From positions 1 to 55,505 of the forward strand of contig JAFXEB010000003.1 of NCBI GenBank assembly GCA_017521025.1: 55,505 bases of DNA. The letters run 5' to 3'. The translations under genes and the position numbers were made by a program. The first letter of the stretch is position 1; each line of letters begins with the position of its first letter. The notes below the pieces were generated by a model, which ran no database searches, had not been told where the DNA came from, and was given only the letters and a program-made list of their open reading frames with translations. This document shows positions 2,960-53,442 of this stretch, piece after piece. Source of the DNA: Clostridia bacterium (lineage in GTDB: Bacteria > Bacillota > Clostridia > Oscillospirales > CAG-382).

Positions 2960-2982
2960 AACTGACCTTCTGTAAAATAGAG

Positions 2983-3011: not shown

Positions 3012-3031
3012 ATATAGTAATAAGTGTGCCC

Positions 3032-3060
3032 ATTATACCACGGCATACGCCGACTGTCAA
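3032..3060 (-). promoter_or_regulatory. Consensus promoter of birA-bioY
   Basis: On the minus strand a perfect TTGACA (3060-3055), 17 nt and a perfect TATAAT (3037-3032) read leftward, with a predicted start near 3025. The two -10 boxes, with flanking bases, form an 8-bp inverted repeat (GGTATAAT at 3004-3011, ATTATACC at 3032-3039). Confidence 0.85.
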
Positions 3061-3102
3061 CCTACTGCGGCACAAAGGGTGACGGATAGAAAAGAGGATA
3101 CT

Positions 3103-34867: not shown

Positions 34868-35792
34868 GAGAATAAAAGTAGCCTTCCCCGGATTAGGTAT
34901 AGGCGAGCTTGATATAAGCTCGGTTGCTATCCGCAATCTGTTCGGTATAGAGGGGCTCGATATAAGATGGTACGCTATAATCCTTTGTATCGGCATTGTG
35001 GGCGCCTTCACGTATTTCCTGACCCGTGGCAAACGCACTGAGGGACTTACGGAGGATGACCTGCTTAACGTTACTATTTTCGCCGTTCCTATAGGTGTCG
35101 TGGGCGCAAGGTTTTTATACGTTATTACAAGCCTCGAGAAATATGACAGCTTTTCTGAAATGATAAATATCCGTGAGGGCGGTCTTGCTATATACGGCGG
35201 CATCATTTTCGGAGCGCTGACTATCCTTGTCTACTCCAAGATAAAGCACCACAATTGCTTTAAGTACTATGACGCTATAGTGCCGGGCGTAATGCTGGGT
35301 CAGGCCATAGGCAGATGGGGCAATTTTATGAACGGCGAGGCATACGGCGTCGGCTATAATGCAGATGGTATGCCCTGGCGTATGACTGTACAGAAGTTTT
35401 ACGAAAGCGGCAAGGTAAGCGAGGTTCTTACCGTGCACCCCACCTTTCTTTACGAAAGCCTCTGGAATATACTGGGCTTTGTGATAGTAAACCTTATTTA
35501 CAGGAAAAAGAGGTTTGACGGTCAGATACTGTGCTTTTATGTGGCATGGTACGGCTTTGGCAGGGCGTGGATAGAGTTTTTGCGTGGGGACAGCCTTATG
35601 GTCTGCGATATGAAGCTTATGGTGCTTCTTGGCTTTGCAAGCTGTGCTGTGGCAATCGGCGCATACATCTTCCTTTACAAGCGTGCCGCATCGGGCACGG
35701 AGCGGCTCGATAAGGAGGTAGCGGCGTTTTTAAGCAAAAAGGACAATACAGAGACACCCGACAGTGACGGGAATAGGGAAGAGGAGAACTGA
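34860..35792 (+). CDS. lgt: Lgt, prolipoprotein diacylglyceryl transferase
   Basis: This 310-residue membrane enzyme transfers diacylglycerol from phosphatidylglycerol to the lipobox cysteine of prolipoproteins. It has about seven membrane segments and the signature GQAIGRWGNFMNGEAYG. It also has IRWYAI-type (here IRWYAIILCIG) and HPTFLYESLWN motifs. It would act on the lipoproteins encoded here (4881, 18378, 20224). The cytoplasmic C-terminus is acidic and a little longer than usual. Confidence 0.96.
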   Translation: MAERIKVAFPGLGIGELDISSVAIRNLFGIEGLDIRWYAIILCIGIVGAFTYFLTRGKRTEGLTEDDLLNVTIFAVPIGVVGARFLYVITSLEKYDSFSEMINIREGGLAIYGGIIFGALTILVYSKIKHHNCFKYYDAIVPGVMLGQAIGRWGNFMNGEAYGVGYNADGMPWRMTVQKFYESGKVSEVLTVHPTFLYESLWNILGFVIVNLIYRKKRFDGQILCFYVAWYGFGRAWIEFLRGDSLMVCDMKLMVLLGFASCAVAIGAYIFLYKRAASGTERLDKEVAAFLSKKDNTETPDSDGNREEEN

Positions 35793-35793
35793 T

Positions 35794-36642
35794 ATGACTA
35801 TACTTGACGGGAAGGCACTTGCCGCAAAAATAAAGGAGCAGACCCTTGAAACTACGAAGGCACTTGCAGCAGAGGGCAAAAGACAGCCCTGCCTTGCGGT
35901 TGTTCTGGTTGGCGAGGATCCTGCCTCCCAGATATATGTTCGCAATAAGCATAATGACTGTATCACTACAGGCATAAAGAGCCTTATGCATACCCTGCCT
36001 GCAGATACACAGGAGGAGGAGCTGCTTGCGCTTATCGACCGTCTCAATGGGGATGACGGTGTTGACGGCATACTCGTACAGCTTCCTCTGCCCAAGCATC
36101 TGAATGAGCAGAGGGTCACCGAGCGTATCAGCGCTCTCAAGGACGTAGATGCCTTCAGCGCATACAACGTGGGACTGATAACCCTGGGCAGAGGCGGTTT
36201 CAAGCCTTGTACTCCCGCAGGCATAATGCGTTTGCTTGAGGAATACGGCATCGACCCTAAGGGCAAGGAGTGCGTTGTGGTGGGCAGAAGCAATATCGTG
36301 GGTAAGCCTATGGCGCTCCTGCTGCTTGCCGCAGGCGGCACCGTTACCGTATGCCATACCAAGACAGCCGACCTTGCTTTCCATACCCGCAGGGCTGATA
36401 TAATCGTTGCAGCGGCAGGGAAAGCAGACCTTATAAACGGTGATATGGTCAAGGAGGGGGCTGTTATAGTGGACGTTGGTATGAACCGCAAGGACGGTAA
36501 GCTTTGCGGCGATGTGGACTTTGAGTCCTGCGCTCCCAAGGCGTCCTACATAACTCCCGTACCCGGCGGGGTCGGCCCTATGACAAGAGCTATGCTTCTT
36601 GATAACACTCTTACGGCATACAGACTGAGCTCCGAAAAGTAA
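35794..36642 (+). CDS. folD: FolD, methylenetetrahydrofolate dehydrogenase/cyclohydrolase
   Basis: This 282-residue bifunctional enzyme interconverts methylene-, methenyl- and formyl-tetrahydrofolate. The signatures are VGEDPASQIYVRNK, DGILVQLPLPKHL, KPCTPAGIMRLLEEYG, VVGRSNIVGKPMA and the C-terminal TPVPGGVGPMTRAML. The ATG at 35794 follows GAGGAGAAC; an upstream in-frame ATG inside lgt lacks such a site. It ends the run of genes and is followed by a strong terminator. Confidence 0.97.
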   Translation: MTILDGKALAAKIKEQTLETTKALAAEGKRQPCLAVVLVGEDPASQIYVRNKHNDCITTGIKSLMHTLPADTQEEELLALIDRLNGDDGVDGILVQLPLPKHLNEQRVTERISALKDVDAFSAYNVGLITLGRGGFKPCTPAGIMRLLEEYGIDPKGKECVVVGRSNIVGKPMALLLLAAGGTVTVCHTKTADLAFHTRRADIIVAAAGKADLINGDMVKEGAVIVDVGMNRKDGKLCGDVDFESCAPKASYITPVPGGVGPMTRAMLLDNTLTAYRLSSEK

Positions 36643-36665
36643 ACGATCACAACAAAATAAACATT

Positions 36666-36707
36666 AAAATCAAAAAAAGCTCGTTTAAACGAGCTTTTTT
36701 TGATTTT
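36666..36707 (+). terminator. Strong palindromic terminator after folD
   Basis: A perfect 42-nt palindrome contains AGCTCGTTT/AAACGAGCT flanked by matching A- and T-runs. The symmetry means it works in both directions. It separates the housekeeping operon from the giant-protein gene. Confidence 0.95.
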
Positions 36708-36760
36708 CAACATAACAACAAAAGAACAATAAAAAATGGTGCTTTCAGCCAAAAAATATA

Positions 36761-36789
36761 TTGACATTCTACAGAAAAAAAGGTATAAT
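36761..36789 (+). promoter_or_regulatory. Consensus promoter of the giant surface-protein gene
   Basis: Perfect TTGACA (36761-36766), 17-nt spacer, perfect TATAAT (36784-36789), about 115 nt upstream of the start. The leader ends with AAAGGAGAGAG before the ATG. These signals predict strong expression. Confidence 0.9.
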
Positions 36790-36904
36790 GTAAACGAATA
36801 TGTATAGGTATAACTGTACCTAAAATTATATCCAATTTTAGGCAAGCTGTTATCCTGTGCGTGTTTCCATTAAGCTTGTTTAAGCAAAAAAAGGAGAGAG
36901 AGTA

Positions 36905-39900
36905 ATGGAGAGAAGTATCAAAAATGCAACCGGTAGAATACTGGCTGGATTTTTGGCGGTGCTTATGGTGCTGTCGCTGTTTGTGACCGTCCTCGGTGAG
37001 CTCGACCTCGATTTTCTGAGGGCGTCCGCATCGGGCGATGACGGCGGTGACGTTTTGCACAATAATACCGCATACTCAAATACCGATTATTCCGTACTGA
37101 CGGGCAAAATCGCCCTTACGGGTGACGGTTTCGGAAAGGATATAAGCGCAGACCTTATGGCTGTGCTCGGTGACGCATCGGTAAAATATTATGATATCAA
37201 CGATGTGTTCACTGCCACTGACGATATTTCGTTGGTTGTGTTCACCTGCGGTACTCAGATGTGTGTGCTCAACAACAAGACCGTTGCCGAGTTCACTGCA
37301 GAGATAACAAGGGCGGTACAGGCTCTCAAGGTGAGGGGCTATGATGTTGTTCTTGTTACCCCCGGTCCCGTTACCGAGTACGGCGCAGACAACTACTATG
37401 CCACTCACACGGGCCTTTGGACCCCCGATCAGGTGGCTTCCGGTATAAACGTAACCAACCGTCTAAGCGATGCGGTTGCGGCTGTCAACAGCGTTGCCGA
37501 GGCAGAGGGTGTTGACGTTATCTCCCTTTACGGTAAGTCCAAGCTTTCGGGCGAGGATGAGTATATGGAGGGCTCTGCAGACGGTATATATCCCGGTCCC
37601 AAGGGCTACACCCTTATGACCCGCTGGATAGCTGAGTACGTTTCCGAAAACTATGTATTTGCCCGTACAAGTCTCGGTACAGAGACGCTTTCGGGTGAAT
37701 ATACCGACATCGATCTGGGCAAGAGCTATGACGATATTGATGCTGTTGTTCTTACCTTTGACAAGGGCACTGCTATCCCCGAGAAGGTTTCTGTTCAGAC
37801 AGCAAAGGCGTATGAGGACCAGTGGTTTGAGGCTATTGCAGACGTTGAAATAAAGCAGGATTACGAGGGCAAGTATGTTGCAAGCCTCGTATTTGAGTCT
37901 GCCACCGCACAGTATATCCGCATAAGTGCGGAGGGCGGCAGCTTCGCTGCAGGTACAAGCGCAAGCATATATCAGACAAAGCTTGCTAACCCCGTTGTTA
38001 CCTATCCCGTAGCAGGCGACGAGGTTACCACCAAGCACGCCTTCAACCTTGAGTGGTCTGATGTTGCAGGTGCTGACAGATATGACGTTGTTATTGCTGA
38101 CAGCGACGGTAATATCGTTAAAAAGTTCACCACCAGCGAGGATACACAGGCTATTCCCACAGGTCTTTTCAAGGACGGTGTAAGCTACAGCTTCAGTATA
38201 GAGTCCGTGTGCTCCGGCTACGTGGACAGCGGCGCTCACAAGGGTAGCGGTGTTTCGGGCGACTTCTCTGCGGCGGACGATGCGGTATATAAGGGCAGTT
38301 CCGAGACTATAAGCGACAGCGTTTCCGCAGGTAAGCTCGTTACTCTCGGCGATCAGGAGCTTTTGTCTCTCGGCGCAAGCGCCACCTATAACGGTACCCA
38401 TACCGATGTGTTTACCGACGGCATTATGGCTGACTATGTGGGCGATACCGATACCATGATCAGGCTTCACTCCTATAACTCCGCAATTCACGTTTGTCAG
38501 GTGGATATCGACCTGGGCAAAGAGGTTTCTGCGGTTACGGGCGTATTCTTTGATGCCGCATTCTTTGCCGTAAGCCACTCCGCAAACGCAAAGCCCAAGA
38601 GCATCAAGGTATACTACGGTGCTGACGGCTCTGATCTTTCCGACCCCAATCACTACGTTGATCCCCGTGAAATGACCATCGGTGAAAGCATCCGTACCAT
38701 GGCATTCAATAAGACCAGCGAGGCCAGGGGCGAGATGACAAGATTTGCCGAGACGGTTGGTGGTACCAACGTCCGCTACATCACCCTCCTTTTCGAGTTT
38801 GAAAACCTTGAGAACTCCGATTTCTGGCTTGATGAGATATATGTGCTCGGTACCTCCGAGGACAGCGGTGTTATCGCTCGTGACGGTGTAAGCGTTCTCA
38901 ACGCAGGTCTTGTGGGCGCCAACAGGTTTGACGGCGGCTACAGCTCCGGCGATTGGATAACTGACCCCCGTTTCGTTGCAGTTGCCGCTAATATGAGCGC
39001 AAAGCCCGTTGAGCTTATTGTTAACCTCAACGCAGATATGGGCAATAACGCTATAGGCCACGGCAATAACTATATTACGGGTCTTGAGCTTTCCTTCGCA
39101 GTTGATACCGATGCTATCCGTCCCTCGTCTATAGTAGTTTCTATCCGTAAGGAGAACGAGACCGAGTGGATCACCGTAGGCGGCAAGGTGTATATAGACC
39201 ACGGCACCGTCTCTGCAGGCGATGCTGAGTTCGTTACCGAGTTTATCCCTCTCACCATGGCAGACGCTTCCGATGTTGAGGCGGCTTATGTTAAAATCAC
39301 TCTCTACTCCGATATATATAACTCTTCCGTTCCCGCATCCTTCGATAGCACGGGCAAGTGGGGCAAATGGTTCGCACTTTCTCATATGGATATCCTTGGC
39401 GGTCAGTATATCGAGTCTATCGAGGCTGATGGTGCAACTGCTGCATACCACGCAAACTTCCTTCAGAACACATCTCTCGTTGGCAGAACCAATTTCGGTG
39501 ACGTTAACAACACCGATATATGGAACACCATTTCTTGGAAAAACGCTCCCTATGCCACCACCCATTCAGGCTATCTTGAGTCGAACGGCAACATAACCGC
39601 AGGTAAGGTATATTGGGCGTCCGAGACATTGAACTCTTCCGCTGCTAATGCAACCGAGGGTGGTGCCACCGCAAAGGCAGACAGCAACCTCGCTATAGGT
39701 ACGAAGTATAAATACACCGTTGGTACTGCTCATACCCGTAGTAAAGATTCTGCTCTTATAGGTGCATACGGCGCAGGCGTTCTTACCAACGGCAGTAAGC
39801 CTACCACCTATGATCACAATACCGCAACAAGCTATCAGGCATACAACAACATATTCCGTGTGGAGTCCGGCGGCAGCCTGATGGTGGAGCTGATCTTCGA

Positions 39901-42900
39901 TCTTGGCTCCAAGTCCAACGTTTCCAGCCTTAAGCTTTACGGTTATGACCATAATACCAGCTTTGGCGTTATCGGCAGCAGCAACGCCAAGACCTTCACT
40001 GCAAGTATAGCCGATACTGAAAACGGCTCTTATACACAGCTCGGCTCTCTCTCCTATGCCGCTTCTACCAAGACGGGCGCATATACCGCAACTATTACAG
40101 GTACGGGCACGGGTAGATACGTTAAGCTGACTCTGACAAATATCACTTACGTTTCTCTCCTTTCCGAGATAGAGATTTACGGCTCTGTGTACTCCGACGC
40201 TCCCGTAGGCGGTGAGATCGCTAACGTAGCACCCTACGGCACATACGCATACTTCGGTATGCTCCCCGGTGACGGTATGGGTCTTGTTGAGGGCTCAGGT
40301 ATCGCACTGCCTGAGGACTATCAGGTTCCCAACTACAGTGCCACCCTTTCCTCTACCATCGCACAGGGCGGTACCGGTCACCGCAACACGCTCGGTGAGT
40401 ATGCAAAGGGTAAGCTCAACGACAATATGTTTGCAATATATTCCAACGGCGTTACTCCTTACAGATGGATGGGCTTTTATCAGAACCCCACCACCAAGCC
40501 CGACGGTATGACCATCGTATTCGACCTGGGTGCGGAATACTCCATTAAGGACGTATATTTCAGGAACCCTCGCAGAGGCGGTGCATCAAACGCAGGCGTT
40601 TACAATGTTACCTACTACTTCTCTGACGATAACACCAATTGGACTACAGGTCAGAAGGGAGCATGGGCGGCCGACGGCACCCTGCCCCAGTCCTCTACCA
40701 ATACAACTGCTTGGGCAATATACAAAAACAGCACTACGGCTCCCACCGGCAGCTACAGATATGTAAAGATCAATATCGATAACGGTGCCGCTACGGGCGA
40801 CAGCGCAAGCCAGAACTTCTATTTGGACGAGGTCGTTATCAACGGCTATCTCGGTGTTGCCGAGGGTCCCGATAAAGAAAAGAAGAATTGGGCACTTTCC
40901 GAGTTGGGCGGTCAGTATATGGGTGTTCTTGGCGCAATATATTCGTCCTATCCCGAGGTTTACACGGGCGGCGGCTCAACATGGGATTCTTTCCACAGCG
41001 GTAAGCTTAATGACGGCTCTATTGCTACGGGCAACCCCGGCGGTACCACCAACCACGTCGGTCTCACTAAGGATTGGTCTACGGCGCAGATAACGCTGGT
41101 AGTAAAGCTCGCTTCAAGAGTTGATATCAGTGACGTAAAGCTCTTTACAGGTCCCTATTCCAGCACCTACCCCTCCTATCTGAACGTAAAGGTAGGCGAG
41201 ACCTCTGACGAGTCGGAGGCTGTGGCGTTTGGAGAGACCACCAGCTATTCAACCTACAGTGGCTCTACCGTAAGTCATACCGTAAACGGTAGCGCAACGG
41301 GTAAATACGTATTTATTACCACATCTTCCACCGTTTACCTTACGCAAATAACCGAGATACAGGTCAACGGTATAAAATCTGCACAGCTTGACGCTCCCAT
41401 TATCACCTCTCACCGTGATGAGCAGGAGATAGGCGTCGATACACTCCTTGAGTGGGATATCATACCCTCTCCCGAGCCCGGCACGATAGTTACCTATTCC
41501 GTTGATGTTACCGACGCAACGGGTAATACGGTTTCCGTTACAACGGGTCTTGCCTCCAACCACATCGAGCTCGACTCCACACCCTTTGCGGCAGGGGAGG
41601 GCTATTACACAATAACCGTATCCTCTAACGCAAACGGTTGGGACCCCGGTGTTACGACCCTGGTTGTTTACTATGCACCTAAGTATATCCTAACCTTTAA
41701 TGCAGCAGAGGGCGCACATCTCAAGTCCTCGGGTCAGTCTGTACAAAGCGTACAGTTCGGCATTTACGCAGGCTCAAGCTGGACCTCTGACGAGGTGCTT
41801 GGCGCCGTTTCAAGTATAGTTGCACTGCCTTATACAGGCGCTGACGGCAAGGTTTATTACTTCAGCCACTGGATCGACGGTGACGGTAACAAGCATATCC
41901 CCACCAGCGGTACTATCAGCGCAAACTATACCTTTGAGGCACAGTATACCCTCTCTGACACTACAGGCGTTCTTACCGACACCAGACTTACGGACGGTGT
42001 TATTTACGACGGCAGGGGCGCACTTTCCAACTACTACTTTACCTTTACAAATACTAACCAGAGCTATGACTACGTCATTATAGACCTTGGTGAGATATAT
42101 TATTCTCTTACCGAGTTTGACGTTTCCTTCTATGCCATGAACGGCGATCTGCCCTTCCAGATCACTTTCGAGGTATCCTCTAAGCTCTATGTGCCCACCA
42201 TTTCTCAGGGTGCGGCATTTGACGATGCTGACTGGCATTACGTTTCCGTTGTACAGGAGGACAGCTACAGATACGACTCCAAGACCGGCAGATACAGCTT
42301 TGATGACGATGTTAAGCACGCTCCTATTATAGACGGTGCATTCGGCAGATACGTAAAGGTTACCTTCTACTACGATACCGATTGCGACGGCGTTTATGTG
42401 GATGAGATAATGGTTTCCGGCTCCGAGGAGCATGACCATACCAACATCGCTGAGGAGAAGCAGGCAAGCGTCGGCGGCGTATATACCGCTTCCCTTACCG
42501 ATGGCGTCGAGGACGCAACCGCAGAGGGCACAAGCTTTATAGTTGAGCTTGAGGACGTTAAGACGGGTATTGAGTCCTTCCAGCTTGTTGGCGCAGGCAA
42601 CACCGAGGCAGAGTTCCTTATCTCTGCGGGCGGCGACAGCTTCTACAGCGTTGAGACCGTTGCAGGTGTTAACGGTACCTATAAGCTTTCCGATACCGTT
42701 TCTGCAAGACGTGTAAAGATAGTGCTTGCGGAGAAAAAGGCAATAAGCGAGATCCGTGTTTTCGGCGACCCCGGCCGTGAAAACTTCTATCTCGACACAG
42801 GCAGAACTTCCACGATTTATCTTAAGTCCGGCACCCTTTCTCTTGACAACGTAGTATCTCTCGGTGCTGTGGATGCAAAGCTTTACGGCACAGACACTCC

Positions 42901-45900
42901 GGGCACCGCAACCTACGCAAACGGCGCACTCGGCTCCGGCAGTGGCTTTGCCATGACCGACGGCGCAGATGTGGGCTATGCCAACGGTATCTCCTATGTT
43001 GACACCGCCAAGGGCAGACTTTGGTACGGTATGTACTCAAGCAAAAAGGGTATAAACAATTATATCAACGCAATCGTCGCAGTACAGTGGAAACCCACTC
43101 TCGACAGCACAGCAGTGCAGTTTGTTATAGGCACCAAGACCTACAAGTTTGAGTTCAACGGCGACGTTAACAAGGGCTTTGTGGTTCTGCAAAGCGGCTC
43201 TGCTGTTCCTTACAGCTACAACGCAAGCAGAACGGGTGATAACTGGATAGTAGAGTTCACCGTGGCTTATGCCGATGTTTCAAGCTCCGCTACCCCCAAC
43301 ATCCCCGTAGACCTGAGCTATAGCCTGACCGCCTACGAGGGCACAGCAAGCGTGGGCACCACGGGCACCCTTACCTACAGGACCAACGGTACCACAGCAG
43401 GCTGGGACTACAGCAATAATAACTCCTCCTGGACAACCATCAGCGGCTACAGCGGCGACGTTGTTGCATGGATGGAGCTTGACCGTGTATACTACGGCCT
43501 TAACACCTTTGCAGTGTCCGTTCTTGATGCTAAAAACAGAGGCTATAGTGCTCCTGACAGCATCAGGTTCCAGGTTTCTATGGATAACGCTACCTGGACA
43601 GATGTCGGTTACACCGCTAAGAAGGCTGTGGGCGACTACAGATACTACGAGCAGTATCAGCCCTCTGAGGCCTATGTCTACAACTTCAGCGTAAACTTTG
43701 AGGGTATTTCCGCTAAGTACGTCCGTGCAGTAATGACCGTGGCAGATGTCAGCAAAAAGGTCGCTGTGCAGGAGTTCTGGGTAAACGCTCTTCCCGAGTC
43801 TCTTAAGATCTCGGGTGGCGATCAGGCATCCAACAGCTTTGATTATAAGATGCTGTGGGATGACGAATATCTCTATATTGCACTTCAGTATGAGGAGGAC
43901 GAGGTTCCCTTCTATACTGCAAGCCACGATTATTACGAGACCTATACCATGAACTACGATACCTCTAAGTGGAACCAGACGGGCGCCGTTACTACCTCGG
44001 GCCCCAACGCTTTCGCTAAGAGCTCTATGTTCTATGACGAGAGCACAGGCTTCTTCCAGCTCAGCCACGATATAACCAGAGCAGGGGATGCCAACACCAC
44101 CGCTCTCGGCTATTCTAACAACGATTCCAAGAACTTTAAGTTTTATAAGGTCAGCTCTATTAAGTGGAATCTGGGCTACACCGTCTCCGATGCAGACTTT
44201 GTGTACGGTGCGGCTAACCTTGCAAGCTCTATAGAGACCTCCACTACCGTTTACGGTACCGATGCCGGCGGCAAGCCTACTCTCGCCGACACCTCCGTAA
44301 TGAACGGTTATATCCTCGTTTCCGACGGCTATGCGCTTTCTCAGGATATCGACGGCTCCAGCCTTTCCGCTAAGCCCATAACCGTTGAGGGTAACACTAT
44401 TCCCGCCTCTCAGATTACCAATGACCTTGTGTGGTTCTTCGAGAGCAGCGACCTTGCTACCGAGATGACCGACTATTCAAAGAGCCTTGGTGATTATCTG
44501 ATCTACGGCTTCAGATATGAAAACGCCGTTACCTCTCACGTGGACAAAGCCTTCTTTGACGGTATCCACGCAATGCAGTACACTAAGTATTATCTTACCC
44601 GTGCATATCAGGGCTTGCTTTGGGAGAACCTTTACACCTTCCCCAGAGACGCCAAGACCCCCAACACCCTGTTTGCTATCAGCGGTATGCCTACATATAC
44701 GGAGTCCGCTGAGAGCATCAACGCCCGTAACAATCACAGCGCACCGGATATCAACTGGAACGTTGTAAGAGACAGCGCAACGGGTAGCTGGAGTCTGTAC
44801 CTCTACTCTCAGGGTAAGGAAAGCTACAACTACTACCTTGATAACGTAGACGGCAGATCCTCCTTCAGACTCTTTATGTCTGTAGCAAACCTTAATGACA
44901 CCGCAAGGTACGATTACGGCAATTTCGATTTCGTTCTCGACACCTACATTCTTGATGATGCTACCATCACTCTGAAGAATGGCGAGGTAGTTCCGCTCAC
45001 CGCAGAGAATAATGCAAAGTATGGCGCAGGCATCGCCTCCAGCGAGTTCCAAAACGCTTGGAACGGCTATAAGAACGTTGAGTTCAAGTCTACCGCTCTC
45101 GGTATGACGGGTGAAACCAACAACTACAAGCTCGACGTGACCAAGCTCAAGGGCAAGGCAAAGGCAAGCCAGAGCGCCAACGGTCAGAACCTGTTTACCG
45201 TAGAGATAGCGATACCCTTTACTCAGCTCGGCTTTACTATGGATAAGACCGAGAACGTAGTAAACAAGTGGGGTAACTTCTATACCAAGATGGGTATAGA
45301 AAAGCCTCTCGGCAAGCGTACTCTGATGCAGTTCGACAGCGATTACGGATACACTGCCGATAACCAGACCACCACCGATATGACAGGCATCGACGAGTTC
45401 TACTATTATGTAGATGCTTCTGAGTTCGGCTATGTCATACAGATGGCTCCCGAGGGCAAGGGCTATCAGGATCTGTCCTACACCGACGGCGAGGGCTATG
45501 CCACCATCTCCTCCGTCCGTGGCGAGGTTCTTAACACCGTAAACGGCTCAGAGATCCAATACACCCCCTCTACCTTCGAGATCTCCAAGATCCATTCCAC
45601 CAACGCTGACCCTGAATATGCCGACGTGGTTGCAGACCTTAACAGCAGAGATGCGTTCAGTTATGTTGAAGAGGACGGTATCTACTACTTCACCTCTCAG
45701 CTTGACTCTAACCGCATAATCAATCAGGGCGGTAACATTTCAACCGAGCTTATGATTCCCGCAGGCGGTGCTTACTTCAGCTTTGACTGGAAGGTACAGT
45801 CCGAGACCTCGGATACTCTTTCGGTATGGCTTGAGACTACCGATACGTGGAACGCTCAGTACGCAGATTGGATAGATACCTATAACTGCGGTATCCCGTA

Positions 45901-48900
45901 CAGAAACATCAAAACCAGTAATGACGGCAGTTGGGTGGTAGCCTCCAACGGTACCCCCGATTCTACTCAGAGCGCATGGCTCGGCGTTCTCGACTATGCC
46001 GATAAGAGCAAGTTCGCCCTTTACAGCGAAATTCTCAAGGCAGGCTACACAGGTTGGTTGGTCAACGGCGTCGACCTGAAGAACGATGCTTGTATGGCGT
46101 TCATTTCCGGCTATCAGGACAACACCCGTAATCCCGAGAACACAGTACTTGCCAGCTGGAAAGAGAATAAGCGCAGCGTTACGAACCTTCCCACCGCAAC
46201 AAACTGGAAGGTCAACGTGGATGACGTGCTTGTATATTCTCCCATAGTTGACGGCTCCGGCTCCTTCGCAAACGGCTCCTACAGACACGTTTGGGACTGG
46301 AACAACGTAACGATGTGGATCCCCAATACCACAGATCAGGCGATTTCCTACACCGTTACATGGATGTATTGGAAGAACGGCTCCAACAAGCTTTCCTACA
46401 ACGCATCTGACGGACGTGGTACCGATGACGCTCAGATAACCAACTTCCGCCTTACCACTACAGAGGAGCTTGGCTATTGGAAGACCTCTGAGAATTGGGA
46501 TACCCTCCGTCTTGACTCCACTATAGCAGATCCTACCGAGACCATGCTCGGCGTTAAGCCTCTTGCCAGCGCAGTAGTTGGCGAGGGCGAGGACGTACCC
46601 GCTATCAACGCATCCACCAACGATCCCGCAAACGCCGTTACCAACACCTTCGGTAAGGACAACTTCCTGACCCTCTCCTATGCGGCAATCGCCGCTACCG
46701 AGGAGGTAGGCACCACTACAACGACCACCACCTATTACCAGACCAAGAACAGGATAAACCTTTCTGTATCCAATGTTCCTGCTGAGGAAATAGAGCTTTA
46801 CAAGAACAACGCAATAGTATTTACTCAGTCCTACGAGGATCACCTTGCAGATGCAGGCACTCTTAAGGATTGGACGATACTTGAACTTAAGTACAACAGT
46901 TCCTATAACACATGGGTTCTTTCCCGTCTGTTTGAGGAGGGCGTTGATAAGAGCAGGTTCAACATCCACGCAGATAACAACACCATAATCATCGCCATCA
47001 ACTACACCTACAGCGCTGAGGACAGCAAGGTTTACGGCTTGTCCCGCGAGGCGGTTCTCTTCGGCTACACCAATAGGGAAGTGCTGAAGATGCTCACTCC
47101 CGAAATCAGATACTCCATGGGCGAGAGCAAGATAGTAGAAACACTGGCGAGCGAGGATGAAAGCCTCAGCGTGACCCAGTTTATAACCAGCAACGTATTC
47201 ATCAGGGAGAACTACAACGTGGCACAGGGCAAGATGTACTCTCTCAGGAACTATCCTACCTATTGGGATAACACCTATATGTATACCGAAAACTGGTTCA
47301 GAGAAAACAATACCGAGGACGGTCTTGCCGCATTCCTCGCAGTATACTCCGAGACTCCTCTTTACTACGTAAACGAAAAGGGCGAAATAGAGGGTAAGGC
47401 TAATACCGATGGCGACTACAGACAGGCGTTCAAGTACTACTACTCCTCTAACAAGGTCCTTAAGTTCGATACCAACCAGTACGGCAACGTATTGTACGTT
47501 CCTGCAGGTGTGGGTCAGCTTACCGACGGCATCAAGATGAGCGTTTATTCCGATACCTACTATGTAGAGTCTCTTGCAGATTACGCAATAGGCTACTTCG
47601 TACAGGACGGTATGGGCACTCCCGATGCTGACGTTATCGAGGACATCGACACTACTGACAGTGTTTACTCTTATATTCAGAAGCCTGACCTCAGTCACGA
47701 TGAGTATGAGGTTTCTGAGGACATCCGCACCCGTGAAGAAAATGTTATTATAGACCTTGGCTCTGTTGAGTATGGTCTGTCTGCCTTCAAGCTCCGCTTC
47801 CTCGGCGGCGGCGAGAACGGCGTAGCCTTCCCCACAAGCGTAGAGTTTGCTATCTCCACCGACGGCCTCAGCTATTCCTATATAGGCTCCGTTGCGCTGG
47901 ATGACACCGCCTTTGATAAGGGCGTGTTCGAGGATGAGTACGCTCACGCATCCGTTATCTTCACAGGCGCAACCGATACGGTATACGGCAACACCGTTGC
48001 AGACTACACCTTCGATCTGCAGACCGTTGGCGTTACCGCAAGGTATATCAAGGCAACTGTGATGAATCACTCTGCTCAGAACGCAAAGACCTTTATTTCT
48101 GAGTTCCAGGTAATTCAGAACGCCATTTACCCCGACGTACTTCCCAAGACCAACGCTTCCACGTGGATAGACGTTTCCGAGGATGCCATACTTATGTATC
48201 AGGACACTCTCGAGGTTTGGGACAACGTGTACAAGAAGGATTACGCATTTGCACTTGCTCCTACTCAGGCAGGCTACCTGTTTGCGGAAGACGAGGGCTA
48301 TGCAGACGATGGCAGAGCCAATAACAACACCAACACCTATCTCAAGGGTGAGCTTACCGACGGTATCGGCGGCACTGAGCTTTACAAGTACAGCTATGAC
48401 AGTACCCTCGTTCCTCCTGCACTGAACGGTACGGGCGGACTAAAGGATATGTCCGTGGGCTGGATGAAGGCTTATGCGGCAGAGGTTTCTCTCACCTTCG
48501 ATATGGGCTCCCTTAACAACGTGGGTTACGTTTCCGTTTATGCCCTTGAATCTAAGGACGGCGTTGATAAGATAACCATGCCTTACAACGTAACGGCTTA
48601 CGTTTCCGATGACAACACTTATTGGAACAAGGTAGCTACCGTAAACGCTAACGATAACGACAGCAGCGCTGTTTCTCTCAAGGGTCTTGACGTTGTTCTC
48701 GAGACGGATGAGTACATTGTATACAGATACAACCTCACCTTCGCAAGGGACGGCGAGCTTGGCTTGCAGCTTGATAACTACCGTTACGTTAAGGTGGTTG
48801 CAGAGACAGATGGCGGCGAGGACGGTTGGATATGCCTTACCGAGGTAGAGGTATACGAGGGTCATCCCTGCTATCCCGTTATCGACCTTACCGACTCAAA

Positions 48901-51214
48901 GTTTGAGAAGGTTGCCATAGGTATTCAGGGCGATGACGCAGAGAAGCAGAACAGCGAGGTTCGTCCCACCTTCTTCCGTGGCTTCTATGACAAGGCTCTG
49001 TATTCCGAGGATACTCCCACCGGTGACTATGAGCTGAACGTAGTATACAACGATAACCCTGCAGAGGATTATACAAGATACTATGTATTCGGCAACGTTG
49101 AGCAGCGTGCGCTTGACGGACGTGGTACGCCTTACTTCTACGGCGGCGACCAGCTCCTGCTCAGGGTTACCAACGAGAACCTTACAGCCTTTGACTATAA
49201 GTATCAGGGCGATTGGGTATCTACCTACAAGCTCCTTGCAGACAGCCGTATTTACTACAGAGACTGCAAGACTGACGGCACTGTAGCTACCACCCGCCTC
49301 TTTACCACCACGGCAGTTCCTACGCCTATGACCGTTTGTGACGTGCTTGCCCGTGATAAGTACACAGGCACCACTCCCGAGGGTTATATGGGCGACTACT
49401 CCTATTACTACCTGCCCATCTACCTTAAGAACTCTCTTGAGTACCTTAAGGCCGAGGGCTACGGCGTAGATAAGGACAACCAGAGCGCAAGCTACATCAA
49501 TATGCCCGAGAACAAGGTAGAGCTTACGGGTACCGTTAAGTGGGATACCAACTATGAGTCCATCTCCGACGAGTACGGCGACGACAAGAACGGTATATCC
49601 CTCAACCTGGCACCTCTCGGCGCAAAGACCAACCTTGCAAAGGTAAGCTACAATGGCACCGAGTACAACGCAAACACAACTCTCCGTTTCGGCTCCATCT
49701 GGTATATCGATGATGCGGCATATTATAACACCCATACTCACAGACAGCAGTACGGTACCCTTATAATGACGCTCAAGAACCTGAGCAGGTACCTTACCGA
49801 CACCTATCCCGATAACGCACCTTACACCTCTGTATTTGAGGATTACGGTCTGCCTCTGCAGGTACTCAACGCACCTACTGAGGTGACGGGCGTAACCGAG
49901 ATCAAGGGCGTGACCGAGGTGGTTAAGCTTGCAGGCGTGACCGAGGTCACCAAGCTCAGCGGCGTTACCGACGAGGGCGTGACCGCAGATAACGCTAAGT
50001 TCTCTCTTGTGGTGGACGGTGCAACCGTTTACTATACCTGTAACGAGGATATCGTTATGGACGCTGCCAACAACGTGGGCAGGGTATGGAAGAGCGGCAC
50101 AAGCTTCTTCTACCACGCAGACAGAAGGATAAGCAGCTACAAGTACACCACTACCGACGGCGGCGTGACGAAGTATTGGTACTGCACCGATGACGTTGCC
50201 CGTGTAAACTGGGTAGACGAAAACGGCCATTGGTATAGCCCCGACGAGACCGTGACCACCGCCGATAAGGTATACGCTATCGAGCTCACTAACGGAAGCA
50301 CGGTGTACTACTACAGCGAGACCGAGCAGCCCACCATCAAGATAATGAGCCGTGACAGCATCGGCACAGCACATTATTGGACCTGCAACGAGGATGTTCC
50401 AAGCTGGACCTATACCACTATTGACGGTAACACTACAAGGTACTGGTATTGCTCCAATTACGAGGGCATAGCAGGCGGCGTTGTTACCGTAGGCGATCAG
50501 CGCTACGCTACCGACAGCTCCGTATTCTATAACGGTCTTATCACTACCGTTGACGGCTCCGGTGAGACCAGATACTGGACTGCTCCCGACGAGGCAAGCT
50601 TCACTATGCTGAGTGCCCTTCTTGAGACTATTGATATCCCTGCAGATTACAGCTTTGACGAAAAGCAGGTAATGGCGGGTCTCGATATCTTCCTTGAATA
50701 CGCTAACAAGCACGTCAAGGGCAAGCAGGGTCAGAACGGTGAGTACCTCAGCTTTGGCGGTATCGTAAAGCACAGCCGTGCTAATAAGTACTACTACTTC
50801 AGCAATATCTCCACCGAGCTCGTTCCCAAGGATTACGAGAACGGCAACATTTTCGCAGGCGTGGACAGCGACAAGGCTGACGGTCAGAACAATACCCAGC
50901 TTCTTGGTATTTACAATTATGACCACCGTTACCTTGAGTTTGATGCAATACTCGCAGGCATTCCTGCTTCTCAGCAGGATGCGAAGGTAGTTGCAGTACC
51001 TTACGCCATCTATGCCAACAACTACGAATTCCTTGAGTTCGGCGAGCATCTCGGCGATGGTGATGCATATGTTGATACCACCTGGGGCGACATATTCAAT
51101 CACTACTACGGCGGCGAGAACGCAAGCAAGGATATCAGACGCTATGTATACGGCGGCGGCATCGCAAGGAGCGTTACCGATGTTCTTGCAGGTGCAAGCG
51201 AGCAGTACGACTGA
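36905..51214 (+). CDS. Giant (4,769-aa) modular secreted surface protein, discoidin-rich
   Basis: One uninterrupted 14.3-kb reading frame. Modules by residue: signal peptide/membrane segment (about 10-31); SGNH-hydrolase-like domain (about 60-250) with GDG at 73-75 for GDS and DGIY at 226-229 for DxxH, hence probably inactive; Fn3-like (360-440 and 1495-1590); discoidin-like modules with DLG and RYVK motifs near 490-650, 670-835, 930-1096, 1143-1317, 1331-1491, 1688-1841, 1846-1957, 2176-2306, 3436-3739 and 3794-3987; InlB-B/Flg_new-like (1594-1682); CBM9-like (about 2306-2850, KMLWDDEYLYIAL); short GVTE repeats (4322-4362); YWYC repeats (4369-4562); unique C-terminus. No LPxTG, SLH, dockerin or C-terminal membrane helix is seen. 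It is probably a glycan- or matrix-binding surface protein. Boundaries are estimates by eye. Confidence 0.9.
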   Translation: MERSIKNATGRILAGFLAVLMVLSLFVTVLGELDLDFLRASASGDDGGDVLHNNTAYSNTDYSVLTGKIALTGDGFGKDISADLMAVLGDASVKYYDINDVFTATDDISLVVFTCGTQMCVLNNKTVAEFTAEITRAVQALKVRGYDVVLVTPGPVTEYGADNYYATHTGLWTPDQVASGINVTNRLSDAVAAVNSVAEAEGVDVISLYGKSKLSGEDEYMEGSADGIYPGPKGYTLMTRWIAEYVSENYVFARTSLGTETLSGEYTDIDLGKSYDDIDAVVLTFDKGTAIPEKVSVQTAKAYEDQWFEAIADVEIKQDYEGKYVASLVFESATAQYIRISAEGGSFAAGTSASIYQTKLANPVVTYPVAGDEVTTKHAFNLEWSDVAGADRYDVVIADSDGNIVKKFTTSEDTQAIPTGLFKDGVSYSFSIESVCSGYVDSGAHKGSGVSGDFSAADDAVYKGSSETISDSVSAGKLVTLGDQELLSLGASATYNGTHTDVFTDGIMADYVGDTDTMIRLHSYNSAIHVCQVDIDLGKEVSAVTGVFFDAAFFAVSHSANAKPKSIKVYYGADGSDLSDPNHYVDPREMTIGESIRTMAFNKTSEARGEMTRFAETVGGTNVRYITLLFEFENLENSDFWLDEIYVLGTSEDSGVIARDGVSVLNAGLVGANRFDGGYSSGDWITDPRFVAVAANMSAKPVELIVNLNADMGNNAIGHGNNYITGLELSFAVDTDAIRPSSIVVSIRKENETEWITVGGKVYIDHGTVSAGDAEFVTEFIPLTMADASDVEAAYVKITLYSDIYNSSVPASFDSTGKWGKWFALSHMDILGGQYIESIEADGATAAYHANFLQNTSLVGRTNFGDVNNTDIWNTISWKNAPYATTHSGYLESNGNITAGKVYWASETLNSSAANATEGGATAKADSNLAIGTKYKYTVGTAHTRSKDSALIGAYGAGVLTNGSKPTTYDHNTATSYQAYNNIFRVESGGSLMVELIFDLGSKSNVSSLKLYGYDHNTSFGVIGSSNAKTFTASIADTENGSYTQLGSLSYAASTKTGAYTATITGTGTGRYVKLTLTNITYVSLLSEIEIYGSVYSDAPVGGEIANVAPYGTYAYFGMLPGDGMGLVEGSGIALPEDYQVPNYSATLSSTIAQGGTGHRNTLGEYAKGKLNDNMFAIYSNGVTPYRWMGFYQNPTTKPDGMTIVFDLGAEYSIKDVYFRNPRRGGASNAGVYNVTYYFSDDNTNWTTGQKGAWAADGTLPQSSTNTTAWAIYKNSTTAPTGSYRYVKINIDNGAATGDSASQNFYLDEVVINGYLGVAEGPDKEKKNWALSELGGQYMGVLGAIYSSYPEVYTGGGSTWDSFHSGKLNDGSIATGNPGGTTNHVGLTKDWSTAQITLVVKLASRVDISDVKLFTGPYSSTYPSYLNVKVGETSDESEAVAFGETTSYSTYSGSTVSHTVNGSATGKYVFITTSSTVYLTQITEIQVNGIKSAQLDAPIITSHRDEQEIGVDTLLEWDIIPSPEPGTIVTYSVDVTDATGNTVSVTTGLASNHIELDSTPFAAGEGYYTITVSSNANGWDPGVTTLVVYYAPKYILTFNAAEGAHLKSSGQSVQSVQFGIYAGSSWTSDEVLGAVSSIVALPYTGADGKVYYFSHWIDGDGNKHIPTSGTISANYTFEAQYTLSDTTGVLTDTRLTDGVIYDGRGALSNYYFTFTNTNQSYDYVIIDLGEIYYSLTEFDVSFYAMNGDLPFQITFEVSSKLYVPTISQGAAFDDADWHYVSVVQEDSYRYDSKTGRYSFDDDVKHAPIIDGAFGRYVKVTFYYDTDCDGVYVDEIMVSGSEEHDHTNIAEEKQASVGGVYTASLTDGVEDATAEGTSFIVELEDVKTGIESFQLVGAGNTEAEFLISAGGDSFYSVETVAGVNGTYKLSDTVSARRVKIVLAEKKAISEIRVFGDPGRENFYLDTGRTSTIYLKSGTLSLDNVVSLGAVDAKLYGTDTPGTATYANGALGSGSGFAMTDGADVGYANGISYVDTAKGRLWYGMYSSKKGINNYINAIVAVQWKPTLDSTAVQFVIGTKTYKFEFNGDVNKGFVVLQSGSAVPYSYNASRTGDNWIVEFTVAYADVSSSATPNIPVDLSYSLTAYEGTASVGTTGTLTYRTNGTTAGWDYSNNNSSWTTISGYSGDVVAWMELDRVYYGLNTFAVSVLDAKNRGYSAPDSIRFQVSMDNATWTDVGYTAKKAVGDYRYYEQYQPSEAYVYNFSVNFEGISAKYVRAVMTVADVSKKVAVQEFWVNALPESLKISGGDQASNSFDYKMLWDDEYLYIALQYEEDEVPFYTASHDYYETYTMNYDTSKWNQTGAVTTSGPNAFAKSSMFYDESTGFFQLSHDITRAGDANTTALGYSNNDSKNFKFYKVSSIKWNLGYTVSDADFVYGAANLASSIETSTTVYGTDAGGKPTLADTSVMNGYILVSDGYALSQDIDGSSLSAKPITVEGNTIPASQITNDLVWFFESSDLATEMTDYSKSLGDYLIYGFRYENAVTSHVDKAFFDGIHAMQYTKYYLTRAYQGLLWENLYTFPRDAKTPNTLFAISGMPTYTESAESINARNNHSAPDINWNVVRDSATGSWSLYLYSQGKESYNYYLDNVDGRSSFRLFMSVANLNDTARYDYGNFDFVLDTYILDDATITLKNGEVVPLTAENNAKYGAGIASSEFQNAWNGYKNVEFKSTALGMTGETNNYKLDVTKLKGKAKASQSANGQNLFTVEIAIPFTQLGFTMDKTENVVNKWGNFYTKMGIEKPLGKRTLMQFDSDYGYTADNQTTTDMTGIDEFYYYVDASEFGYVIQMAPEGKGYQDLSYTDGEGYATISSVRGEVLNTVNGSEIQYTPSTFEISKIHSTNADPEYADVVADLNSRDAFSYVEEDGIYYFTSQLDSNRIINQGGNISTELMIPAGGAYFSFDWKVQSETSDTLSVWLETTDTWNAQYADWIDTYNCGIPYRNIKTSNDGSWVVASNGTPDSTQSAWLGVLDYADKSKFALYSEILKAGYTGWLVNGVDLKNDACMAFISGYQDNTRNPENTVLASWKENKRSVTNLPTATNWKVNVDDVLVYSPIVDGSGSFANGSYRHVWDWNNVTMWIPNTTDQAISYTVTWMYWKNGSNKLSYNASDGRGTDDAQITNFRLTTTEELGYWKTSENWDTLRLDSTIADPTETMLGVKPLASAVVGEGEDVPAINASTNDPANAVTNTFGKDNFLTLSYAAIAATEEVGTTTTTTTYYQTKNRINLSVSNVPAEEIELYKNNAIVFTQSYEDHLADAGTLKDWTILELKYNSSYNTWVLSRLFEEGVDKSRFNIHADNNTIIIAINYTYSAEDSKVYGLSREAVLFGYTNREVLKMLTPEIRYSMGESKIVETLASEDESLSVTQFITSNVFIRENYNVAQGKMYSLRNYPTYWDNTYMYTENWFRENNTEDGLAAFLAVYSETPLYYVNEKGEIEGKANTDGDYRQAFKYYYSSNKVLKFDTNQYGNVLYVPAGVGQLTDGIKMSVYSDTYYVESLADYAIGYFVQDGMGTPDADVIEDIDTTDSVYSYIQKPDLSHDEYEVSEDIRTREENVIIDLGSVEYGLSAFKLRFLGGGENGVAFPTSVEFAISTDGLSYSYIGSVALDDTAFDKGVFEDEYAHASVIFTGATDTVYGNTVADYTFDLQTVGVTARYIKATVMNHSAQNAKTFISEFQVIQNAIYPDVLPKTNASTWIDVSEDAILMYQDTLEVWDNVYKKDYAFALAPTQAGYLFAEDEGYADDGRANNNTNTYLKGELTDGIGGTELYKYSYDSTLVPPALNGTGGLKDMSVGWMKAYAAEVSLTFDMGSLNNVGYVSVYALESKDGVDKITMPYNVTAYVSDDNTYWNKVATVNANDNDSSAVSLKGLDVVLETDEYIVYRYNLTFARDGELGLQLDNYRYVKVVAETDGGEDGWICLTEVEVYEGHPCYPVIDLTDSKFEKVAIGIQGDDAEKQNSEVRPTFFRGFYDKALYSEDTPTGDYELNVVYNDNPAEDYTRYYVFGNVEQRALDGRGTPYFYGGDQLLLRVTNENLTAFDYKYQGDWVSTYKLLADSRIYYRDCKTDGTVATTRLFTTTAVPTPMTVCDVLARDKYTGTTPEGYMGDYSYYYLPIYLKNSLEYLKAEGYGVDKDNQSASYINMPENKVELTGTVKWDTNYESISDEYGDDKNGISLNLAPLGAKTNLAKVSYNGTEYNANTTLRFGSIWYIDDAAYYNTHTHRQQYGTLIMTLKNLSRYLTDTYPDNAPYTSVFEDYGLPLQVLNAPTEVTGVTEIKGVTEVVKLAGVTEVTKLSGVTDEGVTADNAKFSLVVDGATVYYTCNEDIVMDAANNVGRVWKSGTSFFYHADRRISSYKYTTTDGGVTKYWYCTDDVARVNWVDENGHWYSPDETVTTADKVYAIELTNGSTVYYYSETEQPTIKIMSRDSIGTAHYWTCNEDVPSWTYTTIDGNTTRYWYCSNYEGIAGGVVTVGDQRYATDSSVFYNGLITTVDGSGETRYWTAPDEASFTMLSALLETIDIPADYSFDEKQVMAGLDIFLEYANKHVKGKQGQNGEYLSFGGIVKHSRANKYYYFSNISTELVPKDYENGNIFAGVDSDKADGQNNTQLLGIYNYDHRYLEFDAILAGIPASQQDAKVVAVPYAIYANNYEFLEFGEHLGDGDAYVDTTWGDIFNHYYGGENASKDIRRYVYGGGIARSVTDVLAGASEQYD
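50009..50590 (+). repeat. Tandem 43-46-residue YWYC repeats within the giant protein
   Basis: Four and a half protein-level repeats start at residues 4369, 4415, 4460, 4504 and 4547. The unit is TT-x-DG-xx-T-x-YWYC followed by acidic residues, and a half-period of about 22 residues repeats the aromatic-acidic pattern (GHWYSPDE, HYWTCNEDV). The look is that of choline/glucan-binding-type aromatic repeats, but with recurrent cysteines. The repeats are diverged at the DNA level. Confidence 0.7.
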
Positions 51215-51249
51215 TAACTGCGTGCTTTCACGCACAACAGTAAAAGAGA

Positions 51250-51282
51250 AAAGGGGGCGTCGGGCAACCGACGCCCCCTTTG
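51250..51282 (+). terminator. Terminator after the giant gene
   Basis: A GC-rich 11-bp stem GGGGGCGTCGG/CCGACGCCCCC with a GCAA tetraloop, preceded by AAA and followed by TTTG, lies 36 nt after the stop. Confidence 0.93.
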
Positions 51283-51381
51283 TTATCTTCGTTAACACCA
51301 TAGCTCCTTGTGATTATGCACAAAATGAATGGCTGTCCTTTGTCAAAATGGGAGAAAAAACCTTTACAAACAATACTTTGC

Positions 51382-51410
51382 TTGACTTTTTATCCAAAGT
51401 AATATAAAAT
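51382..51410 (+). promoter_or_regulatory. Promoter of the dockerin-peptidase gene
   Basis: TTGACT (51382-51387), 17 nt, TAAAAT (51405-51410). The start codon follows about 50 nt later, so this gene is expressed separately from the giant gene. Confidence 0.75.
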
Positions 51411-51461
51411 CAAAGTGTATGTATATGGTTTCTATGCGATAAATAAATGGAGGTTTTGGAT

Positions 51462-53183
51462 ATGAAAAACTTTGTTTCCGCTACCAAGAAGCTTCTCGGC
51501 TGCCTGCTGGTAGTCTGCTTCTTGATGTCTCTTCACGTTGGCATCCTTTCCGCTACCGCAGTTTATGAGGACTGGGTAATGATCGTTCAGAACGACACTA
51601 AGTGGACAGGTGCAGCTAATACCTACGGCACAGGTACCCTTAGAGCAACGGGCTGCGGTATATTCTCTCTTGTTAATGCAGTTGGTTACCTTACGGGTAA
51701 TGCAATGGACGTAAACGAGGTTGCCGCTTGGGCATACAGCATCGGCGCTTATAATAAGGGCGGCGCAGACGGTACATACAGATTAGAGCTTTATCCTAAA
51801 GTAACCGCAAAGTACGGCGCAAGATACGGCTTTTCTCTTGACTGTAACGGCACTTCGGGCTGGTGGTCCACCGTTAATAACTCTGTACTTAAGAACCACC
51901 TTGCAAATGGCGGCACCGCTATTGCTCACGTGCCCAACCACTTCATAGCGCTGGTTGATTATAATGCTTCCAGTGACTCCTTCCACGTGCTGGACAGCTA
52001 TCCCACCAACGGTAGAAACGACTACCCCGGTGATGTATGGCGTACTACCTATCAGCTTACCAGCGCAAACTCTTATATGACCGTTGACTGGTGGTGCCTC
52101 CTTTCCGAGGACGGTATTCAGACCCCCGTTGTTACCGCTCCCACTACTGTAGAGCACGGCGCTACCCTTACCGCAAGCTGGGCGGCTGTTAATAAGGCTA
52201 CCTCTTATAGCTACAAGGCAGAGGTTTATCAGGGTGAGATGAGTGCTACCACCGCTACCACCGTAGCAAGCGGCACTACCACAGGCACCTCCTTCACCGT
52301 TCCCGCACAGAGCTCCGGTAAGTATATGAAGATATCCGTTACCGCTACCGACGGCAGCAACTCCAAGACGGGTACCGCTACCGTAATGATGGGACCTTGG
52401 GTAGGCTCCTATCCTACAACTGTTGAGTATATCCCCGTTGCAGACGTTAACGGCACTCAGAGCGCCAGCAACAGCACTATCTGGAACTCGTCCAAGGGCA
52501 CTACCTTCGGTATGACGTGGTGGCGAGCCTTCCTCTGCTCACCAAACGCTGACGGTACCTATACCGTAAATACCATTTACGAGAACGGTGCCGAAAAGAG
52601 CGTTTCCGTAACGGGCAAAAACGTGCTTTGGGCTATCCACAGCGCTTATGCCAACTATGAATACTGTACAGACATCGTTGTGGGCGATAAGCTCACCTTC
52701 AAGGGCGTCTATATTGATAAAGCGACCGTCCGTGGCTCGGGTTACGTGCTTGTAAACGGCGGCGTGCCCATCGGCCCCACCTCCCTTACTATCAAGGCAG
52801 GCAACGATATGAAGTTTGATGCAGAGTATCTTGATGATGTTTCTGCAGGTGTAACCGGCGATCAGCTTAAGGCTATGTTCAATGAGGAGTCTCAGTATAT
52901 TTCCATTAAGAACACTGCAGGCGCCGCTGTTACCACGGGTGCTGTTGGCACCGGCTGCACTGTCAGCCTTATAGTAAACAACGTAACCGTTTCCACCTAT
53001 ACCGTAATAGTTCCCGGTGACCTTAACGGTGACGCCTCTATTACCTCTGCTGACCTTATGACCGTAGGTCTCTCCGTAACGGGCGCCGTTAAGGTGGATG
53101 CTGTAGGCACCAAGGCCGCAGATATGGACGGCTCCGGCGAGGTTGGCGCTACCGACTACTTGGCTATCAAGACCAAGATCTGA
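51462..53183 (+). CDS. Secreted C39/papain-like cysteine peptidase with C-terminal dockerin
   Basis: This 573-residue protein has a signal peptide ending near residue 33 and a papain-like C39-type domain (about 35-215). Its candidate triad is Cys65 (RATGCGIFSLVNAVGYL), His160 (PNHFIALVDYN) and Asp178 (VLDSYP). An Fn3-like module (about 225-310), an unassigned region (about 320-435) and a beta domain follow. A type-I dockerin (517-573) has two calcium loops, DLNGDASITSAD and DMDGSGEVGATD. Dockerins plug into cohesins of cellulosome-like scaffolds or act as stand-alone modules. The ATG at 51462 follows GGAGG; an ATG five codons earlier lies in that site. The peptidase activity is inferred. Confidence 0.82.
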   Translation: MKNFVSATKKLLGCLLVVCFLMSLHVGILSATAVYEDWVMIVQNDTKWTGAANTYGTGTLRATGCGIFSLVNAVGYLTGNAMDVNEVAAWAYSIGAYNKGGADGTYRLELYPKVTAKYGARYGFSLDCNGTSGWWSTVNNSVLKNHLANGGTAIAHVPNHFIALVDYNASSDSFHVLDSYPTNGRNDYPGDVWRTTYQLTSANSYMTVDWWCLLSEDGIQTPVVTAPTTVEHGATLTASWAAVNKATSYSYKAEVYQGEMSATTATTVASGTTTGTSFTVPAQSSGKYMKISVTATDGSNSKTGTATVMMGPWVGSYPTTVEYIPVADVNGTQSASNSTIWNSSKGTTFGMTWWRAFLCSPNADGTYTVNTIYENGAEKSVSVTGKNVLWAIHSAYANYEYCTDIVVGDKLTFKGVYIDKATVRGSGYVLVNGGVPIGPTSLTIKAGNDMKFDAEYLDDVSAGVTGDQLKAMFNEESQYISIKNTAGAAVTTGAVGTGCTVSLIVNNVTVSTYTVIVPGDLNGDASITSADLMTVGLSVTGAVKVDAVGTKAADMDGSGEVGATDYLAIKTKI

Positions 53184-53229
53184 TAGACATCGTCGAATTT
53201 TTGGGTTTTAAAACACAATAGCAAACACT

Positions 53230-53260
53230 GCGGGAGAGGCGATTTGTCCTCTCCCGCTTT
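53230..53260 (+). terminator. Terminator after the dockerin-peptidase gene
   Basis: GCGGGAGAGG (53230-53239) and CCTCTCCCGC (53248-53257) form a 10-bp stem followed by TTTCCTTT. Confidence 0.9.
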
Positions 53261-53340
53261 CCTTTGTGCGTCAAAAAAGGCTCCGTTCAAAAAAAGCACA
53301 GCCAATATCCGCTAAATCGATAAAAATATAAAAATAATCC

Positions 53341-53369
53341 TTGCAATATCAACGCATTTGTGATAATCT
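53341..53369 (+). promoter_or_regulatory. Possible promoter of the malate dehydrogenase/malic enzyme genes
   Basis: TTGCAA (53341-53346), 17 nt, TAATCT (53364-53369), in an AT-rich stretch between the terminator and the start at 53443. The -10 box is weak; GATAAT at 53362 is an alternative with shorter spacing. Confidence 0.45.
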
Positions 53370-53442
53370 ATGAAAAGAGGGGAGAGGATGTAATTTCCAC
53401 CTCTTAAACACAGTAAATAATTTTGAAAGGAATGATATTTTT

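Follow-up and report, generated by a model that had tools for sequence, protein, structure and literature searches.

A giant discoidin-rich protein, predicted to be secreted, encoded at an accessory locus of a Clostridia genus

The window analysed here, a 55,505-nucleotide contig from a Clostridia bacterium, carries an intact gene for a protein of 4,769 residues that is predicted from its sequence to be secreted and to be made up mostly of domains of sugar-binding type. The protein is probably a cell-surface adhesin, very long and multivalent in its binding of carbohydrates. The discoidin-like and other modules would bind glycans of plant fibre or of gut mucin, the variable N-terminal half would face outward and set specificity, and the conserved C-terminal half would carry a new means of attachment. 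We favour the adhesin because of the discoidin modules, the fold matches, and the pairing of a variable zone with a conserved C-terminal half; it is also backed by the missing SGNH catalytic residues, the accessory locus with its dockerin genes, and the dockerin-rich genome. The features are collected in Table 1.

Table 1. Features of the giant gene, its protein and its flanks (positions in the window)
Feature	Residues	Position	Strand	Basis
Sigma-70-type promoter TTGACA-17-TATAAT, 12/12		36761..36789	+	recurs 5' of the G001 and G003 orthologues
Giant gene, 4,769 aa		36905..51214	+	exact open frame
Signal peptide	1-43	36905..37033	+	read by eye
Degenerate SGNH-like domain	about 50-252	37052..37660	+	sub-threshold Pfam match
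Fn3-like stretch	358-442	37976..38230	+	matches 1493-1582, E 4.4e-7
Discoidin-like module A	495-655	38387..38869	+	E 3.7e-12 to module C
Possible discoidin-like module B	676-832	38930..39400	+	E 2.7e-3, not significant after correction
Variable zone	937-1100	39713..40204	+	relatives with extra stretches
Discoidin-like module C	945-1094	39737..40186	+	profile self-comparison
Discoidin module D	1157-1322	40373..40870	+	PF22633 and PF00754 above cut-off; self-comparison
Discoidin-like module E	1352-1490	40958..41374	+	E 1.8e-11 to module C
Fn3-like stretch	1493-1582	41381..41650	+	PF07550, 20.7 vs cut-off 22.3 bits
InlB-B-like stretch	1590-1685	41672..41959	+	motif by eye
Discoidin-like module F	1690-1840	41972..42424	+	E 4.2e-6 to module I
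Discoidin-like module G	1845-1957	42437..42775	+	E 1.6e-6 to module C
Discoidin-like module H	2160-2295	43382..43789	+	E 6.5e-10 to module I
CBM9-like sandwich	2311-2338 and 2645 to about 2850	43835..45454	+	motifs by eye
Sandwich insert	2339-2644	43919..44836	+	absent from P0021
Predicted jelly-roll	2881-3187	45545..46465	+	
Discoidin-like module I	3600-3740	47702..48124	+	profile self-comparison
Discoidin-like module J	3772-3989	48218..48871	+	self-comparison link at about 3800-3985; tentative fold match
Predicted aromatic beta-hairpin array and two helices	4284-4603	49754..50713	+	model, internal repeat
Conserved C-terminal region, no known family	4604-4769	50714..51211	+	alignment, Pfam
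Terminator-like stem		51250..51281	+	14 pairs, 10 of them GC
Neighbouring gene, 578 aa, C-terminal dockerin		51447..53183	+	also lies 3' of the giant in G001 and G003

The gene and its locus

The frame is open for 4,769 codons from its ATG with no internal stop, a gene of about 14.3 kb that lies exactly where the first-pass annotation had placed it. The promoter described there as perfect matches at 12/12 positions and has the same layout in two other species (genomes G001 and G003), and the ribosome-binding site, rated good, is aaaggagagagag immediately 5' of the ATG; this site and an GAATATGTATAGG element past the promoter also precede both orthologues. The terminator had been called strong; its stem has 14 pairs, 10 of them GC, but its T-run is short. 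A motif just past the -10 box, TATAAT-N7-A-N-TATGTATAKG, occurs at 36784-36808 and 51403-51427. Allowing at most two mismatches, it has five matches in the genome against three for a reversed-pattern control, and two of the five belong to the giant gene, where the match is exact, and to the gene after it, where it has two mismatches; as a sequence element common to both, it may hint at their co-regulation. A foreign origin was considered on the basis of composition and dropped, as the GC content of the giant gene (0.51) gives no signal against the window (0.50) or five other genes (0.48-0.53).

The extreme length of the frame and the metagenome-derived assembly could point to an assembly artefact or a decayed frame, an explanation that we regard as very improbable. 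Relatives of similar length occur in other assemblies, gene order is conserved on both sides of the gene, and dN/dS is ~0.13-0.16, a ratio that is rough because dS is close to saturation. The underlying values (Nei-Gojobori type count, Jukes-Cantor correction) are dN 0.245-0.255 and dS 1.6-1.9 for the giant gene against the two orthologues, and dN 0.171 and dS 1.20 between the orthologues themselves. Purifying selection is seen in all 500-codon blocks with a computable dS, one block having none. No frameshift or assembly join is indicated: no stops occur across the 4,526 (G001) and 4,458 (G003) codons compared, and each 100-residue bin of the family alignment is occupied by 15 to 17 of the 17 relatives. 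The earlier claim of a real gene is thus borne out by an intact frame under purifying selection.

The flanks show how the gene is distributed within the genus. The upstream neighbours, including folD (35764-36642), and the downstream dockerin gene (51447-53183), Ldh_2 (53443-54570) and malic enzyme are arranged in the same order in G001 and G003. All seven genus genomes (7/7) have folD, and in each the locus lies on one unbroken contig, with the giant gene in 3/7, dockerin-type genes only in 1/7, and neither in 3/7. In G006, folD is followed after 180 bp by the dockerin gene without the giant, then by two further genes and Ldh_2, while in G002, G005 and G004 Ldh_2 follows folD directly, with gaps of 97, 201 and 171 bp. 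Four of the seven genus genomes lack the giant gene on contigs that span folD to Ldh_2, which makes it an accessory gene and its locus one that accommodates surface genes. The folD-Ldh_2 interval (36642-53443; loci L067, L081, L082 and L083) is variable, being empty, holding dockerin genes only, or holding the giant and a dockerin gene. By eye, two adjacent G006 genes (L067:14855-19492) show SGNH motifs, and they share a C-terminal part, ~42% identical, with the dockerin protein of the window. The N-terminus of the latter resembles a C39/papain-type peptidase by eye; Pfam calls the dockerin only.

The genome of the window (G000, 1.64 Mb, completeness 85.7%) is dockerin-rich and of cellulosome type, its main scaffoldin not being found by Pfam. 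It gives 60 dockerin matches, 59 of them above cut-off, four cohesin matches (two above cut-off, and all four on contigs other than that of the giant), 14 F5/8 matches, three of which lie within the giant, and one sortase. Dockerin and F5/8 matches at near-identical positions and with equal scores on contigs C3 and C9 suggest an assembly duplication. In place of an adhesin, the protein could be a secreted enzyme of great size that acts on polysaccharides, or a scaffold of the cellulosome type, since enzymes often come with modules of carbohydrate-binding type, those 59 dockerin matches are present in the genome, and the protein encoded next has a dockerin at its end. We consider this improbable. 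The giant has no cohesin (the four genome matches lie elsewhere and segment scans gave none) and contains 0 of the 60 dockerin matches, for which reason a scaffoldin was set aside; nor does any catalytic Pfam family score above cut-off in it, and its SGNH-like part is without Ser and His.

Relatives and conservation along the chain

Searches with the full-length protein and with residues 2800-4300 together found 18 relatives of 3,331-5,346 aa. The first, with 1,314 scored candidates, gave 18 proteins including the window's own (P0002), and the second, with 1,330, gave 18 and added P0021; in both, scoring was limited to the candidates with the most shared words. The relatives (P0003, P0004-P0019 and P0021) belong to the same family as the giant, with similar lengths and 46-69% identity in the full-length search. 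Named contigs with relatives include a goat-cecum MAG, Clostridia bacterium RGIG1823 and Oscillospiraceae bacterium SIG636. P0003, which is 66% identical over the full length, is the only relative with a name at its source, and its description is limited to that automatic name, 'discoidin domain-containing protein [Clostridia bacterium]'. Some relatives differ in extent: the shorter P0021 is missing the trefoil insert and other parts of the giant, P0018 has lost or never had residues 484-654, most of 4357-4555 and parts of 1035-1590, and P0019 is atypical, aligning only up to about residue 2730 and having an abnormal end.

As the first-pass annotation had supposed, neither Pfam nor NCBIfam names a family that covers the full length (0 NCBIfam families with the window protein as query), and we found no paper naming the family in the open-access literature. 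Searched against PDB sequences, the N-terminal 2,289 residues gave four rows, the best at E 0.47, and nothing significant. The N-terminal 1,000 residues have a strong match in three of 60 genomes (G000, G001 and G003) and short, weak matches only in five further ones. Residues 2731-4100 are matched in 3/7 genus genomes and 3/63 family genomes, the own genome included and all three in one genus; many of the compared genomes are incomplete, and absence alone is therefore weak evidence. The only other match of residues 2731-4100 in the own genome (on contig C14), a candidate for a shorter paralogue, proved to be a discoidin-like stretch of 100 residues that belongs to another protein.

Among the relatives, the C-terminal half is more conserved and the N-terminal half more variable. 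Identity, as means per 100 residues, is lowest at 901-1100 (25-32%) and highest at 2801-4300 (61-79%, with one bin at 53%). Within the variable zone, insertions of at least 30 residues are present in 10 of the 17 relatives, the longest extra stretch reaching up to 364 residues at one place.

Modules of the chain

The discoidin-like modules were delimited by cutting the family alignment into 200-residue slices and comparing these with one another as profiles (1,035 pairs). Nine of them are each linked to one or more others at E 4.2e-6 or better, and these links survive correction for the 1,035 comparisons. The earlier count of about ten therefore stands for nine, while the tenth (module B) fails correction; a possible eleventh at 264-340 (Pfam E 0.017, self-comparison 9.2e-4) was left uncounted. 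In Pfam, the whole chain matches PF22633 at 1200-1252 (45.9 vs cut-off 27.8 bits) and the segments match PF00754 (43.6 vs cut-off 28.2 bits). Across the ten segments, residues 901-1400 are the only part where these families exceed cut-off, and three other segments hold weak discoidin matches. Only module D thus has a clear Pfam identity of its own, and the other modules are named discoidin through profile links. Module J has a tentative fold match to the CBM32 type, but its region is one of low pLDDT. Among the relatives, Pfam finds PF00754 with four stretches in P0003 and makes no discoidin call in P0013 and P0021. The description of the protein as discoidin-rich is upheld by the Pfam match together with the self-comparison. 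The giant resembles CBM32 / F5_8 type C (discoidin) proteins in its Pfam match above cut-off and, tentatively, in the fold match of module J, and differs from them in having about nine or ten modules per chain, most too divergent for Pfam.

The remaining N-terminal modules are less clear. The two stretches reported as Fn3-like do match each other, but their name rests on reading by eye, since the PF07550 score of the second falls just below cut-off. The InlB-B-like module was not confirmed: its likeness is one of a motif seen by eye, and Pfam makes no call. The SGNH-like domain scores below cut-off for Lipase_GDSL_2 (22.5 vs 32.9 bits), and its hhalign alignment to two SGNH-type G006 proteins is weak (E 0.0032, probability 10). 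At the positions expected for the block I Ser and the block V His, Gly replaces the nucleophile Ser and no His is present in 18/18 alignment rows. Because both residues are missing in every row, we treat the domain as non-catalytic; catalysis has most likely been lost, with some doubt left by the weak alignment to true SGNH proteins, and the domain may serve as a structural or binding module.

The CBM9-like module was only partly retained. Its likeness to CBM9 is seen by eye, through motifs, but Pfam makes no CBM9 call on the whole chain or on segments, and the module is better described as a sandwich split by a predicted beta-trefoil (residues 2370-2627, inside the insert; AlphaFold2, VIA-align). 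In P0021 the insert is missing and the sandwich runs uninterrupted. On the models, a beta-trefoil nested in a CBM9-like sandwich is predicted here as a new arrangement. Compared with beta-trefoil proteins such as the R-type lectins, the trefoil of the giant has no sequence family and sits within another domain, and its matches extend to non-lectins, e.g., fascin and interleukins. The models are poor overall (mean pLDDT 52.6 and 47.5), and Foldseek with one model gave no row at E <= 0.001. The trefoil, the jelly-roll and module J have fold matches to carbohydrate-binding and other beta proteins; the rows include many unrelated beta proteins, and no function was read from them. A trefoil or discoidin fold alone is not proof of sugar binding.

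The C-terminal region and the place of the protein among giants

The C-terminus had been thought unique, whereas it is kept in 16 of the 17 aligned relatives and in P0021. Pfam finds 0 families up to E 10 in residues 4284-4769. The hairpin array is modelled with ten-residue pLDDT means of 70-92, shows an internal repeat (E 2.2e-6, profile self-comparison), and has hairpins predicted about 23 residues apart; most of it is missing in P0018. This spacing and the aromatic residues suggested a choline-binding (CW_binding) array, an idea that we keep only as a resemblance, as there is no sequence match. A PDB sequence search with the array gave 12 insignificant rows, none choline-binding, and the fold-search list for its model was filled by another domain and held no row for the array. 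A shared C-terminal sorting domain was rejected, since the last 772 residues match nothing else in the genome at E values up to 1. In agreement with the first-pass annotation, no recognised wall anchor was found: the translated C-terminus has no LPXTG-type tail by eye, and Pfam calls no SLH domain in the giant.

The lack of a known anchor, the conserved C-terminal half, and the array spacing, which resembles that of wall-binding repeats, would also suit a protein of a structural coat or of the biofilm matrix, with modules that bind polysaccharides of its own cell or its kin rather than foreign glycans. We rate such a role as rather unlikely, although somewhat less so than an enzyme or scaffold. 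The presence of the gene in only 3/7 genus genomes speaks against an essential coat, and the sequence of the array matches none of the wall-binding families.

Bacterial surface proteins of giant size are already known as a kind, as one account illustrates (PMC12863079). There, Giant1-5 of Apilactobacillus kunkeei are extracellular proteins of 3,000-8,000 residues encoded by accessory genes in a small genome, and Giant1-4 have N-terminal beta-solenoid domains. The protein described here is likewise very long, accessory and, by prediction, extracellular; its predicted discoidin, trefoil and jelly-roll modules set it apart, by description, from the beta-solenoids of Giant1-4. In the open-access literature, we found no description of its family, of the nested trefoil, or of the C-terminal array. 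Rather doubtfully, one might go further and see in it the first family in a new class of giant surface proteins with many lectin domains. Its protein would be an accessory cell-surface filament with a new C-terminal anchoring unit (array and terminal region); it would lengthen as whole lectin domains are inserted into older ones and, together with the dockerin protein encoded beside it, would hold a fibre-degrading cell on its substrate.

Should the reading as an adhesin prove true, a Clostridia family would join the described giant extracellular proteins of bacteria. It would also offer a bounded and testable case, that of one 14-kb accessory gene in a 1.64-Mb genome with occupied and empty states of the locus within one genus, and P0021 would provide a natural empty-site comparison for the nested domain. 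The case would include a possibly new mode of attachment.
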